Shown here: positions 2,778-5,933 of the stretch, one piece after another
Layout of the letters: every line of letters begins with the position of its first letter
Numbering within the stretch: position 1 is the first letter of the stretch
Origin: Spirochaetaceae bacterium
GTDB lineage: Bacteria; Spirochaetota; Spirochaetia; Treponematales; Breznakiellaceae
Length of the DNA: 5,933 bases
Direction: 5' to 3'
NCBI GenBank assembly: GCA_031284295.1
Contig: JAITAE010000261.1
Coordinates: 1-5,933, forward strand
Position numbers and translations under genes: made by a program
The notes under the pieces: generated by a model
Seen by the model: only the letters and a program-made list of their open reading frames with translations
Databases searched by the model: none
What the model was told of the DNA's origin: nothing

Positions 2778-2783
2778 TACGGA

Positions 2784-2837
2784 AGCACTGATTTATGCGA
2801 GTGCGCATTCGTCAACGTAGTTGACGCAATCGGTGCT
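2784..2837. repeat. Palindromic element folding as a three-way junction
   Basis: An outer 10-bp stem AGCACTGATT (2784-2793) with AATCGGTGCT (2828-2837), containing one G-T wobble, encloses two hairpins: ATGCG-AGTG-CGCAT (2795-2808) and CGTCAAC-GTA-GTTGACG (2810-2826). The three helices are joined by single bases at 2794, 2809 and 2827. The preceding GGAAGCACTGATTTA (2781-2795) resembles the IS/MITE terminus GGGCAACGCTGATTAA, so this may be a related miniature element. The segment from GTTGACG rightwards (2820-2847) is repeated exactly at 4694-4721. Confidence 0.55.
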
Positions 2838-2848
2838 ACTTTAATGCC

Positions 2849-2876
2849 GTATTTGCGTAATGAAATGAGCAAATAC
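2849..2876. repeat. 8-bp perfect hairpin between the two palindromic elements
   Basis: GTATTTGC (2849-2856) pairs with GCAAATAC (2869-2876) around a 12-base loop GTAATGAAATGA. The 20 bases ATTTGCGTAATGAAATGAGC (2851-2870) recur at 4743-4762, where the 3' arm is lost. Confidence 0.5.
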
Positions 2877-2880
2877 ATAG

Positions 2881-2935
2881 GGCAACGCTGATGCGCCAAC
2901 GAAGTTGGCGAGGCCTCAAGTTAATCAGCGTTGCC
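2881..2935 (+). mobile_element. IS5-related MITE, one-hairpin copy (55 bp)
   Basis: It starts GGCAACGCTGATGCGCC and ends AAGTTAATCAGCGTTGCC, so the ends are inverted repeats. It encloses one hairpin CGCCAAC-GAA-GTTGGCG (2894-2910). It is flanked by a perfect ATAG on both sides (2877-2880 and 2936-2939), a likely 4-bp target duplication, as expected for IS5-group transposition. It has no coding capacity for a transposase, so it must move in trans. The right-hand ATAG runs into the Shine-Dalgarno of the CBS gene. Confidence 0.75.
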
Positions 2936-2937
2936 AT

Positions 2938-2943
2938 AGGAGA
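2938..2943 (+). promoter_or_regulatory. Ribosome binding site deciding the start of the CBS-ACT gene
   Basis: AGGAGA ends 7 bases before the ATG at 2951, the standard distance. The reading frame is also open upstream to an ATG at 2891 inside the MITE, with AGGG (2879-2882) eight bases before it. The 2951 start is preferred because it gives the N-terminus MIVSRVMTKNP typical of CBS proteins, and the extra 20 residues come from the mobile repeat. Confidence 0.75.
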
Positions 2944-2950
2944 ATACGCA

Positions 2951-3589
2951 ATGATAGTCAGCCGTGTTATGACAAAAAATCCGGTTTATACCCACATAGA
3001 CGCGACAATGAGCGAGGCGCGTTCCTTGATGGATAGGGAAAAAATATCTCATTTACCGGTACTTGATAAAGAAAATAATTTGGTCGGTATAGCCACAAAA
3101 AAAGATATGTTAAAAGCCGGCCCCTCGCCTGCGACCAGTCTGGATATGTATGAGATCAGCTATCTTCTGTCTAAGCTGACTATTGACAGGGTAATGACTA
3201 AAAGCGTTATTACTACCGTTGAAAATGAAGTTATCGAGGAAGCTGCCAGAATGATGGCGGATAACAATATAAGCTGTCTGCCCGTTGTTCGCGGCAGGCT
3301 GTTGTTGGGCATAGTAACGGTGAAAGACCTGTTTCAAGCCTTTATCACTGCCTTTGGAGCGAGGCATCCGGGTATCAGGGTCAGCTTTTTTATGCAGGAA
3401 AAGCCGGGTCAGCTTGCGAAACTGAGCAACGCCATAGCCGAAAAAGGCGGTAACATCGTGGCTTTCGTTACGCAGGAGGGCGACTATCTCTATGAACTTG
3501 GCGGCACAATAAAAATTACCGGCATCGACATGGAGGATGTAACCGATATATTCAAGAAATCTAAAGCTGAAATCTTGGATATTCGTTAG
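2951..3589 (+). CDS. CBS-CBS-ACT domain regulatory protein (AcuB-like architecture)
   Basis: A 212-residue cytoplasmic protein with two CBS motifs, about residues 1-56 (VMTKNPV; ligand-type motif GIATKKD at 46-52) and 79-133 (VMTKSVI; GIVTVKD at 120-126). A C-terminal ACT domain follows at about 141-212 (VSFFMQEKPGQLAKLSNAIAE). Paired CBS motifs form a Bateman module that usually binds adenine nucleotides, and ACT domains usually bind amino acids or other small ligands. The combination is that of AcuB-like proteins, whose exact biochemical role is poorly defined. No enzyme domain is attached, so a ligand-sensing regulator is inferred. The gene is visibly AT-richer than the ABC-F gene. One MITE lies before its Shine-Dalgarno; another begins at its stop codon, whose TAG lies in the TTAG border. 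The ending EILDIR looks natural for an ACT domain, so truncation is unlikely. Confidence 0.9.
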   Translation: MIVSRVMTKNPVYTHIDATMSEARSLMDREKISHLPVLDKENNLVGIATKKDMLKAGPSPATSLDMYEISYLLSKLTIDRVMTKSVITTVENEVIEEAARMMADNNISCLPVVRGRLLLGIVTVKDLFQAFITAFGARHPGIRVSFFMQEKPGQLAKLSNAIAEKGGNIVAFVTQEGDYLYELGGTIKITGIDMEDVTDIFKKSKAEILDIR

Positions 3590-3684
3590 GGCAACGCTGA
3601 TTAACTTGGCGCCTCGCCAGTATAGCTGGCGCCTCGCCAGCATAGCTGGCGCCTCGCCAGCATAGCTGGCGCATCATCCTTGCC
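3590..3684 (-). mobile_element. IS5-related MITE, inverted three-hairpin copy (95 bp)
   Basis: On the plus strand it starts GGCAACGCTGATTAACTTGG, the reverse complement of the right end of the other copies, and ends GGCGCATCATCCTTGCC, a mutated version of their left end. It is therefore inserted in the opposite orientation. Its interior is three tandem 20-bp units (3611-3630, 3631-3650, 3651-3670), each a hairpin CGCCAGY-ATA-GCTGGCG. Flanks are TTAG (3586-3589) and CTAA (3685-3688), reverse complements of each other rather than a direct duplication. The left TTAG contains the stop codon of the CBS gene. Confidence 0.7.
3611..3670. repeat. Three tandem 20-bp hairpin units inside the MITE
   Basis: The unit GCCTCGCCAGCATAGCTGGC repeats three times with a single difference (T for C at 3621). 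Hairpins lie at 3615-3631, 3635-3651 and 3655-3671; the first has a T-G wobble next to its loop. The stem differs from that of the other MITEs (CGCCAGC instead of CGCCAAC), with the opposite strand changed to match. Confidence 0.85.
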
Positions 3685-3704
3685 CTAAGAAGCAAGCTCG
3701 TTTC

Positions 3705-3732
3705 AATAACATGACCAAATGGTCATGTTATT
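3705..3732. terminator. Bidirectional terminator candidate between convergent genes
   Basis: AATAACATGACCA (3705-3717) pairs perfectly with TGGTCATGTTATT (3720-3732), a 13-bp stem with two bases between the arms. It lies between the CBS gene (plus strand, ending 3589) and the GerMN gene (minus strand, ending 3746), where a shared terminator is expected. T runs after the stem are modest on both strands, so it may instead be a protein-binding palindrome. Confidence 0.55.
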
Positions 3733-3745
3733 TCCTTACAGTTCC

Positions 3746-4594
3746 TTAAAGAGAATCCCTGCTGATTGGCCGCCCTATGCGTATGCTTTCGCCGAGAAAA
3801 TCAACGCGCTGCCCCTCTATCAGTATCTGGACATCGTATATGTTCGGAAATTCTGTTGCGGTCCAGACAATTTGACGTAGCTGCGCTATATAACCTTCTG
3901 CTCCATAGCTGTTAAACATAAAAATTTCGTTAAAGTTGATGAACGCGGTATTGCCTGTAACCCGTGCGTTCTGTATCCGTGCGCCTTCCGGTATGAGCGA
4001 GGTCAAACCCTGCTCCTGTTCAGCGTCGGTGGTTCCCTGCAACAATAGATTCAACACATCAAGCAGCGGGGAATCTGAAACAAAGACTCGCCGTTTAACC
4101 GGTGATGTAAATACCATGCCTGAATTGTCAATTTTTACAAAATAAATCACGCGCTCCCGTGTTTCGGGCGGCTTTTCTTCAGTTTGAGCTTTTCCGACGG
4201 CAATCTGAGTCCGGTTTTCTTGCCCTGCCGCCGCGTCAGTACCGCCGTCAGACTGATTTTCAAGCTCCTCCGTCTCAACAGTATTTCCATTCGGTATTTC
4301 CTGTGGAAAGGACGGACGGTCAGGTTGTTCGATGGTAATTATGTTGACAGGCGGATTTTGTTCCGTCTCCTCCTCCCGCAGCGACTGTCCATCATCACCG
4401 GCAGCTACCGGCCTATTTGTCAGACGTTCAACTATATGGGTGGATTGCAGCGTTTTTCGTATATCCGGCAGCTTTATTATGAACAGCAACAGTATGACGA
4501 TGAAAAAAACCATCCAAAAAAGTATACCTAACGGCGTTTTTCGTTTTTTAGAAGCATTATTCGCACTGTTTTGGCCTGTTCTATGGACACTCAT
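3746..4594 (-). CDS. Membrane-anchored GerMN-domain protein
   Basis: A 282-residue protein. Residues 1-20 are polar and end in KKRK. Residues 21-41 (PLGILFWMVFFIVILLLFII) form one strong transmembrane segment, so the N-terminus should be cytoplasmic and the remainder periplasmic or extracytoplasmic. Residues about 45-147 are an acidic, Pro/Gln/Glu-rich low-complexity linker. The C-terminal part (about 148-277) matches the GerMN fold, with SPLLDVLNLLLQGTTDAEQ, the turn IPEGARI, and VTGNTAFINFNEIF followed by a hydrophobic helix and strand. GerMN domains occur in the sporulation protein GerM and the lipoprotein LpqB and generally mediate contacts at the cell envelope. Nothing here suggests sporulation, so an envelope-assembly role is only inferred. 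An in-frame TAA four codons upstream (4604-4606) limits the start. There is no real Shine-Dalgarno sequence. Confidence 0.85.
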   Translation of the reverse strand: MSVHRTGQNSANNASKKRKTPLGILFWMVFFIVILLLFIIKLPDIRKTLQSTHIVERLTNRPVAAGDDGQSLREEETEQNPPVNIITIEQPDRPSFPQEIPNGNTVETEELENQSDGGTDAAAGQENRTQIAVGKAQTEEKPPETRERVIYFVKIDNSGMVFTSPVKRRVFVSDSPLLDVLNLLLQGTTDAEQEQGLTSLIPEGARIQNARVTGNTAFINFNEIFMFNSYGAEGYIAQLRQIVWTATEFPNIYDVQILIEGQRVDFLGESIRIGRPISRDSL

Positions 4595-4600
4595 ACCTAT

Positions 4601-4629
4601 ATTTTACGAGAAAAAACATTAACCGTCAA
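4601..4629 (-). promoter_or_regulatory. Sigma70-type promoter of the GerMN gene, predicted leaderless
   Basis: On the minus strand TTGACG (4624-4629) and TAAAAT (4601-4606) are separated by exactly 17 bases. Five of six -35 bases and five of six -10 bases match consensus. The -10 occupies -12 to -7 relative to the ATG, so transcription is expected to begin at or within a base or two of the start codon. This fits the absence of a usable Shine-Dalgarno sequence. Confidence 0.65.
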
Positions 4630-4693
4630 TTTGCCGCGGCACAAGGCCATAAATACGCTGATTACAAAAATTATGAGGATTTGAGTACGAAAA

Positions 4694-4762
4694 GTTGACG
4701 CAATCGGTGCTACTTTAATGCGAATGTCAACGAAGTTGACACATTTGCGTAATGAAATGAGC
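4694..4762. repeat. Second copy of the palindromic spacer repeat
   Basis: Bases 4694-4721 are identical to 2820-2847 (28 of 28), and 4743-4762 are identical to 2851-2870 (20 of 20). Between them this copy has a 21-base insert containing the hairpin TGTCAAC-GAA-GTTGACA (4725-4741), where the other copy has only three bases. In both places the block lies just upstream of a MITE, so the two form a composite repeat. Confidence 0.8.
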
Positions 4763-4774
4763 TTGGCTCCTTTG

Positions 4775-4846
4775 GGCAACGCTGATGCGCCAACGAAGTT
4801 GGCGCGCCAACCTCGTTGGCGAGGCCTCAAGTTAATCAGCGTTGCC
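4775..4846 (+). mobile_element. IS5-related MITE, two-hairpin copy (72 bp)
   Basis: It has the same ends and orientation as the copy at 2881-2935 but is exactly 17 bp longer. The extra 17 bp are a second hairpin CGCCAAC-CTC-GTTGGCG (4805-4821) placed directly after CGCCAAC-GAA-GTTGGCG (4788-4804). The last 25 bases are identical to the first copy. Flanks are TTTG and CTAA, so no intact target duplication is visible. Confidence 0.75.
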
Positions 4847-4898
4847 CTAATGACCGGCTGCGCGGTTATTTTAAGAGTTTGCACCGGACTGGGGGGTA

Positions 4899-4918: not shown

Positions 4919-4921
4919 GCA

Positions 4922-4978
4922 GGGGGGCGCGACAGGTAAGCGGCTGTATGCCGCAGGCAGTCTGGAAATGCGCCCCCC
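4922..4978. repeat. 57-bp GC-rich palindromic dispersed repeat, copy B
   Basis: The ends are GGGGGGCGC (4922-4930) and GCGCCCCCC (4970-4978). The length equals that of copy A at 319-375. The central hairpin is TGCC-GCA-GGCA (4949-4959), in place of TGCCG-GTAA-CGGCA, so the fold is kept although the bases differ. It lies on the adk-coding strand, about 155 bases before that gene. Confidence 0.6.
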
Positions 4979-5013
4979 TCCCCATCTTTATACATCACCG
5001 GCTCCATCACAAG

Positions 5014-5736: not shown

Positions 5737-5755
5737 AATCTAAAAAAAGCATTAG

Positions 5756-5933
5756 GGCAACGCTGATTAAATCGGGAAGAAGTAGTAGGATAGGAAGTAT
5801 GAAAACACAACAAACATTTACGGACGTGGAATACGGAAAACGGAAACGGATAAGCCGGCGGGAAGTATTTCTGGATACAATGGAACGGCTTGTGCCTTGG
5901 GAAAAGTTGGAGGAACAAATACGCCCCCATTAT
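5756..5933 (+). mobile_element. IS5-family insertion sequence, left end (runs off the window)
   Basis: The terminal inverted repeat GGCAACGCTGATTAA (5756-5770) is preceded by TTAG (5752-5755), which fits the YTAR target of IS5-group elements. A transposase gene starts 29 bases in. The terminus is identical to the corresponding end of the three MITEs in this window, making this IS or a sibling their likely source of transposase. The right end is outside the window. Confidence 0.8.
5799..5933 (+). CDS. IS5-family transposase, N-terminal fragment
   Basis: Forty-five codons are present and open to the window edge. The N-terminus has the familiar IS5-group pattern: a TF-DVEY opening, then RREVFLDTMERLVPW (20-34), then IRPHY. 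In complete members this region precedes the DDE catalytic domain, which is not visible here. AGGA (5787-5790) is 8 bases before the ATG, and a second AGGAAG (5792-5797) is too close to be the main site. The gene points away from adk. Nothing in the visible part suggests inactivation. Confidence 0.88.
   Translation, partial: MKTQQTFTDVEYGKRKRISRREVFLDTMERLVPWEKLEEQIRPHY

Follow-up and report, generated by a model that had tools for sequence, protein, structure and literature searches.

Seventeen-nucleotide hairpins in a Spirochaetaceae genome are optional side arms of a modular miniature inverted-repeat element

A stretch of 5,933 nt from a Spirochaetaceae bacterium (GenBank assembly GCA_031284295.1, contig JAITAE010000261.1; hereafter the window) carries eight 17-nt hairpins, each with a 7-bp stem and a 3-nt loop (7-3-7). 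The original prediction held that their stems vary by matching changes on both arms, owing either to a fold that matters or to the copying of one arm from the other. All eight hairpins were found, seven of them with 7 of 7 Watson-Crick pairs; the sole mismatch is the predicted T-G wobble, in the hairpin at 3615-3631. Exact 7-3-7 hairpins numbered 10 in the window, whereas 300 dinucleotide shuffles gave 0.53 on average and never more than 3. The 10 were seven of the predicted eight, one at 759-775 that is a portion of a longer hairpin, and two in shifted register (3625 and 3645), which appear because a 20-nt array folds in two phases. The pattern YGYCARYNNNRYTGRCR, whose variable positions accept pairing and non-pairing letters alike, had 56 matches in the source genome (a draft of 1.84 Mb in 318 contigs, 58% complete, in which the window is contig 143) and 0 when reversed.

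Rather than standing alone, the hairpins form side arms of miniature inverted-repeat elements (MITEs). Every hairpin of the window sits in an element with one or both of the similar terminal repeats GGGCAACGCTGATT and GGAAGCACTGATT, and the elements are short, present in many copies, bounded by inverted terminal repeats and without coding capacity. A full-length element comprises three hairpin domains. The two terminal repeats form the ends of domains I and III, both of which are palindromic. Domain II is a hairpin whose loop is AATGAAATGAG; the constancy of this loop stems partly from the selection of rows, as it served as an anchor. Each domain has one fixed joint (H1, H2 and H3, respectively), which may be empty or filled by a hairpin. 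Our main finding, missed by the original prediction, is that IS5-type MITEs carry these hairpins as optional modules at fixed joints.

Three copies of the MITE are present in the window. Copy 1 (2781-2936, plus strand; flanking anchors from 2782) has all three domains, with H1 filled at 2810-2826 (CGTCAAC-GTA-GTTGACG), H3 filled at 2894-2910 (CGCCAAC-GAA-GTTGGCG) and H2 empty within the domain II hairpin GTATTTGC...GCAAATAC (2849-2876, plus strand). Copy 2 (3589-3685, minus strand) consists of domain III only and has three H3 hairpins in a 20-nt array (3615-3631, the unit with the wobble; 3635-3651; 3655-3671). Its first base is the final base of the stop codon (3587-3589) of a CBS-ACT gene. 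Copy 3 (4694-4847, plus strand) is left-truncated inside H1, of which only the 3' arm is retained; H2 is filled at 4725-4741 (TGTCAAC-GAA-GTTGACA) and H3 is doubled, with adjacent hairpins at 4788-4804 (loop GAA) and 4805-4821 (loop CTC). A single base separates the latter loop from the reverse complement of GAA (TTC). The eight hairpins are split over three sites (2810 in H1, 4725 in H2 and the other six in H3), so that most of the listed stem differences separate one site from another. Within a single site of the window, CGCCAAC versus CGCCAGC at H3 is the only two-sided difference. The observation itself was confirmed.

A total of 67 whole elements (107-296 nt) were extracted with fuzzy end anchors. 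Fifteen were dropped by length (L139, L153, L161, L170, L180, L249, L250, L263 twice, L290, L295, L099, L114, the 147-nt row of L015 and the 227-nt row of L026) and three as exact duplicates, leaving 49 distinct rows. Lengths of the 52 length-kept rows formed a ladder. Empty elements were 119-120 nt long (11 rows; 4 rows in the source genome, the form also occurring in several relatives); elements with one, two and three 7-3-7 hairpins measured 137-138 nt (10 rows), 153-156 nt (27 rows) and 174 nt (a single copy), respectively, and the 176- and 179-nt copies (3 rows at 176-179 nt) had a doubled H1. Each hairpin adds 18 nt at its joint. Joint lengths, measured between flanking anchors and independently of pairing, gave the same result: among 105 distinct places, the H1 joint was 13 nt long in 42 and 31 nt in 39 (81/105 together); the H2 joint was 12 nt in 22 and 30 nt in 39 of 73 places (61/73); and the H3 joint was 7 nt in 81 and 25 nt in 14 of 123 places (95/123). 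Loci were chosen by a match to the hairpin pattern or the terminal repeat, and these filled-to-empty ratios are not frequencies. Duplicates were removed before counting, namely palindromic empty sites read on both strands and loci L080, L052 and L093, which are contigs of genomes G059, G060 and G044. The remaining joints held arrays or other hairpins, had longer inserts or belonged to decayed copies; H1 arrays grew in 21-nt steps (52, 73 and 94 nt). Filling replaces one base by base-hairpin-base at H1 and H3, and replaces two bases at H2. Filled and empty copies coexist within one genome. In the source genome nearly all hairpin clusters lay in MITE sequence; by eye, only 3 of 31 (L154, L158 and L160) did not.

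The terminal repeat links the MITEs to IS5-family insertion sequences. At 2 of 26 non-spirochaete loci among the matches listed, GGGCAACGCTGATT bounds elements of 1165 and 1158 bp with transposase open reading frames (ORFs). Both transposases, from Burkholderiales elements, belong to the IS5 family (NF033581, 327.7 and 331.6 bits; cut-off 140) and also matched DDE_Tnp_1. In the window, the terminal repeat GGGCAACGCTGATTAA (5755-5770, plus strand) marks the left end of an insertion sequence that runs off the contig; this repeat precedes the first 45 codons of an IS5-type transposase (5799-5933, plus strand). These codons had no Pfam match alone, and were 93% identical to the beginning of a longer transposase copy in the source genome. 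The IS5-type transposase copies found in the source genome were all broken or cut by contig ends. The longest had 97 aa, with a match to DUF772 and 65 bits over 72 of 285 positions of NF033581, below the whole-protein cut-off of 140. Two further loci among the 26 carried ORF-less elements of 144-150 bp; elements of this kind, with the same terminal repeat and long inner inverted repeats, lie at L031 (2864-3013) and L122 (663-806, Herbaspirillum), both from Burkholderiales. In the length-kept MITE rows, TA followed the right end in 50/52 and was present no more than 6 nt outside the left end in 50/52; it may be part of the repeat itself.

A genome of the same genus (G061; 83% protein identity) had neither element beside the orthologous CBS-ACT gene, which indicates that the elements move or are lost. 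The source genome has a second CBS-ACT gene (G000 C139:1672-2304, compared with C143:2954-3586; 81% protein match), the near flanks of which lack such an element. In the window, the CBS-ACT gene has its longest ORF beginning within MITE copy 1 (2891-2953), and the true start is likely the ATG at 2951 behind AGGAG; MITEs may therefore mislead gene calling. A crude ORF-based classification, limited to the domain III type in loci matching TTAGGGCAACGCTGATTAA, placed 22 copies between tandem, 12 between divergent and 10 between convergent genes, with 6 within ORFs and 20 unresolved; no fixed position relative to genes was seen in it.

Exact TTAGGGCAACGCTGATTAA matches were found at 115 or more loci (at least 115) in named genomes. 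Among the matches listed, 89 were in Treponema or Spirochaetaceae metagenome genomes and 26 in others (25 Burkholderiales, 1 Desulfovibrionales). The isolate labels of the genomes with TTAGGGCAACGCTGATTAA presumably stand for termite guts. When 195 genomes of the family were searched with the hairpin pattern, three besides the source genome were prominent: G059 with 43 matches (control 3), G060 with 33 (0) and G044 with 26 (0). About ten further genomes had a weaker excess, e.g. G025 with 14 (2) and G075 with 13 (0), and the rest were near controls. By sequence identity, G059, G060 and G044 are Pcl387_bin63, Pcl387_bin125 and Pcl387_bin37, with one sample label in common. G044 belongs to a different genus despite this shared label, and transfer between genera within one gut is possible. 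Copy 1 had no match in plasmid and phage collections.

Different hairpins occupied one and the same joint. H2 stems were TGTCAAC or GGTAAAC, in registers one base apart. H3 stems were CGCCARC in the source genome and G075, and CGGAC or CGGACC in G072, G076, G091 and G121, which represent four other genera. By the pattern used, H3 was filled in 7 of 195 genomes; H1 was filled in 6 of 195. Longer hairpins were present at the same joint in L063, L084 and L108. Loops occurred in both orientations: GTA and TAC at H1 of G060, and TTTA and TAAA at H3. A strand-specific stable DNA loop of the GNA type was considered and dropped, as loops include AAA, ATA and CGC besides GAA, GTA and GCA. The loop AATGAAATGAG was likewise dropped as the mark of a separate hairpin family; only one further case was found (374-400 of the window), with an unrelated stem.

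Copy 1 had an unusually stable predicted fold, with z-scores of -4.83 as RNA and -7.23 as DNA; 0 of 200 shuffles was as good in either. Empty domains are predicted to form plain hairpins; when filled, domains I and III are predicted to become three-way junctions joined by one-base linkers. No three-way junction was predicted for filled domain II, and in L303 the two hairpins of a doubled H1 are predicted to pair with one another instead. No Rfam 15 family reached its gathering score; the match to mir-1202 (22.2 bits, gathering cut-off 80) was rejected as chance.

Pairing was kept in most hairpins. Of 92 distinct single-hairpin sites, 81 were fully paired (H1 36/39, H2 33/39, H3 12/14) and 11 were one-sided or broken; L102, among the imperfect H3 rows, is a hairpin shifted by one base. 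Distinct two-sided changes were limited to pair 3 of H1, pair 7 of H2 and pair 6 of H3, plus one array unit in L301 that differs from its neighbour on both arms with the loop unchanged. GGTAAAC-type H2 hairpins had no two-sided change at all. Mismatches on the element strand were A-C (6), G-T (1) and other (4), with no wobble preference (binomial p 0.125, one wrong-register hairpin excluded). The pairing-excess tests included 55/56 hairpins of the source genome, 31/43 of G059, 19/26 of G044 and 27/33 of G060, and the shuffles left shared descent in place in all of them. In the source genome, 201 of 220 variable cells were Watson-Crick, compared with a shuffle mean of 139, and its 29 distinct hairpins gave 97 compared with 73; none of 2000 shuffles was as high in either case. 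G059 exceeded all 2000 shuffles even with distinct hairpins only; on that basis G044 and G060 had a weak excess (97 and 226 of 2000 shuffles as high). When the 3' letters were shuffled 1000 times, the observed pairing was reached by 0 shuffles for the terminal-repeat stem and H1, 4 for the domain I inner stem (empty copies), 5 for domain II, 10 for the domain I outer stem, 66 for H3 and 90 for TGTCAAC-type H2. In the domain III terminal repeat, the pair four bases in was A-T in 21 rows, C-G in 18, T-A in 4 and mismatched in 6. Domain II had stem variants with the loop kept. Pairing is thus kept, yet independent compensations are few. The predicted interpretation, a fold that matters or a copied arm, was partly supported: paired letters exceeded shuffles, distinct two-sided changes were few, and one-sided or broken hairpins were more numerous.

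Neighbouring hairpins differed in loop orientation according to their spacing. At 20-21 nt, the loops of 9 of 10 pairs were direct, with 1 tie and none inverted. At 16-17 nt, they were nearer inverted in 5 pairs and direct in 4, with 1 tie (n = 10; Fisher p 0.033). L045, with loops GCA and TGC, would be a further inverted case, but lay outside the limits of this count.

On balance, we favour an explanation in which a modular three-domain MITE with an IS5-family end repeat carries the 17-nt hairpins as optional side arms, and in which the two-arm changes arise mainly by copying of one arm from the other at the DNA level. Its support comes from the fixed steps in joint length and the element lengths that follow them, the unrelated or shifted hairpins at one joint, the loop orientations and the two-sided change in L301. 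During replication, a folded hairpin would lead the polymerase to use one arm as template for the other. Arms and loops may be made, and partly mended, by template switching (foldback synthesis) while the DNA is single-stranded or extruded; we infer this because strand switching leaves inverted loops, with both orientations at one site. Tandem units 20-21 nt apart, with the same loop orientation, may come from slippage, and those 16-17 nt apart partly from inverted copying. An IS5-type transposase would move the elements in trans, and the empty form would be ancestral. The few two-sided changes and the mismatches without wobble bias agree with arm-to-arm copying under continuing decay no less well than with RNA selection, and the pattern can be explained without a host function. 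As a bolder and more tentative proposal, the repeat may be growing by making its own hairpins, a perfect 17-nt foldback being gained at the joint of each domain stem by strand switching.

Several observations weigh against arm copying. The two-sided changes are few, partly inherited and outnumbered by one-sided ones, so that arm repair would have to be inefficient, and half of the close neighbours retain loop orientation. The H2 rows were read in the better of two registers and were not fully blind to pairing. Copying alone does not explain the near-constant 17+1 size at three joints, which would possibly suit selection for the shape of the junction. No local template was traceable for the CGGAC(C) hairpins, and gain rather than loss of hairpins would depend on the empty copies in relatives. 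In rRNA, loop inversion with compensation was found to be extremely rare (PMC8794818).

Selection for the fold is the alternative that deserves most attention, although we consider it rather unlikely. The element would be transcribed, its branched RNA would act on the host or on the element (through mRNA stability, termination or protein binding), and arm changes would be compensated. The strong predicted RNA fold, the excess of paired letters in several stems (terminal repeat, H1, domain I and domain II), the domain II stem variants with their loop kept and the constant 7-3-7 size all argue for it. However, the DNA fold is at least as unusual, no Rfam family corresponds to the element, and wobble pairs are not preferred. 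TGTCAAC-type H2 and H3 were matched by as many as 90 and 66 of 1000 shuffles, and the GGTAAAC type lacked two-sided changes. Moreover, empty, filled and doubled copies coexist, and the copies lie between genes of all orientations in the crude counts given above.

The presence of one hairpin family at three non-homologous joints, with presence and absence within one genome, would also be expected if the 18-nt hairpin were itself a mobile mini-element that inserts into palindrome joints. It would then be similar in kind to the double-hairpin elements of organelles, which are likewise short optional hairpins but are organellar and not known to be nested in an IS-type MITE. We regard such mobility as a poor explanation: nearly all clusters of the source genome lie in MITE sequence, no clear target duplication is seen where joint bases are replaced, and we know of nothing that moves 18 nt. 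Less probable again is that no special process is at work, a few ancestral hairpins having spread with the MITE and the covariation reflecting fixed between-site differences plus drift. Two-sided variants within a site are indeed few and many copies are near-identical, but unrelated hairpins at one joint, inverted loops, the two-sided change in L301 after tandem duplication and the 81/92 perfect sites would be left unexplained. Palindromes of 17 bp with a 3-bp centre could also suggest a double-stranded binding site for a dimeric protein. This is very improbable, since half-sites would vary independently around a consensus, whereas here the arms of one copy match and unrelated palindromes replace one another at one joint.

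Among known kinds of element, the BOX repeat of Streptococcus pneumoniae, with its modular order boxA-boxB(n)-boxC (PMC3049150), is the nearest. Both are modular MITEs with terminal repeats, both are predicted to fold into a branched RNA, and in both an internal module may be absent or repeated many times in tandem; the BOX module varies between strains. The likeness is architectural only; terminal repeats and host differ. BOX has a target duplication, of which the TA near the ends of the present MITE, possibly the repeat's own, may be a counterpart. The BOX array is one kind of module repeated at one place, whereas the present MITE has one joint per domain, a 17-nt hairpin and interchangeable unrelated hairpins. 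A term search of that paper found no mention of compensatory change. With IS5-family insertion sequences the MITE shares the terminal repeat GGGCAACGCTGA and TA adjoining the ends, but it is without transposase and measures 119 to about 180 nt. Monttinen and Loytynoja (2022, PMC8794818) argue that hairpins can be created and mended by template switching, and take loop inversion with compensation as the strongest support. The one-step making or mending, loop inversion and two-sided changes proposed there would apply here too; those hairpins were inferred in rRNA and microRNA genes, and ours lie in a mobile repeat in which one joint can be empty or hold single, doubled or inverted hairpins. Small inverted triplications (PMC13334657) arise by replication error in duplicated-inverted-duplicated order and are removed by hairpin slippage in E. 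coli; they average about 148/160/148 bp, compared with 17-21 nt here. No description of the present family was found in the open-licence literature on MITEs with Treponema or termites, hairpin modules, three-way junctions and template switching. By term search, the words Treponema, hairpin and IS5 family were absent from a 2024 review of prokaryotic MITEs.

The window also encodes ABC-F-like, CBS-ACT, GerMN-domain and adenylate kinase proteins. A terminator-like palindrome, AACATGACC...GGTCATGTT, separates two convergent genes at 3706-3731. A palindromic repeat, GGGGGGCGCGAC...GCGCCCCCC, occurs at 316-376 and 4919-4979 with 72% identity between the copies, and is perhaps the 57-bp pair of the original prediction. 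Sequence similar to this repeat was found in L006 and L007 inside larger elements, between two GGGCAACG-type ends. At 454-506 lie two short repeats, CCCGC-TG-GCGGG and CCCAC-TG-GTGGG, which have a two-sided difference; by inspection, the trend claimed for the repeats at 460-501 was right.

Matched changes on two arms are commonly taken as proof of a functional RNA. The present MITE family would allow a direct test of whether copying at the DNA level suffices, and calls for caution on covariation in mobile palindromes. Its empty, single, doubled and inverted hairpins at one joint are natural intermediates between a plain hairpin and a branched structure. If the repeat does grow by making its own hairpins, one living family would keep every step from plain hairpin through branched junction to tandem array, and would be a natural record of structured nucleic acids gaining arms, with covariation arising without selection.

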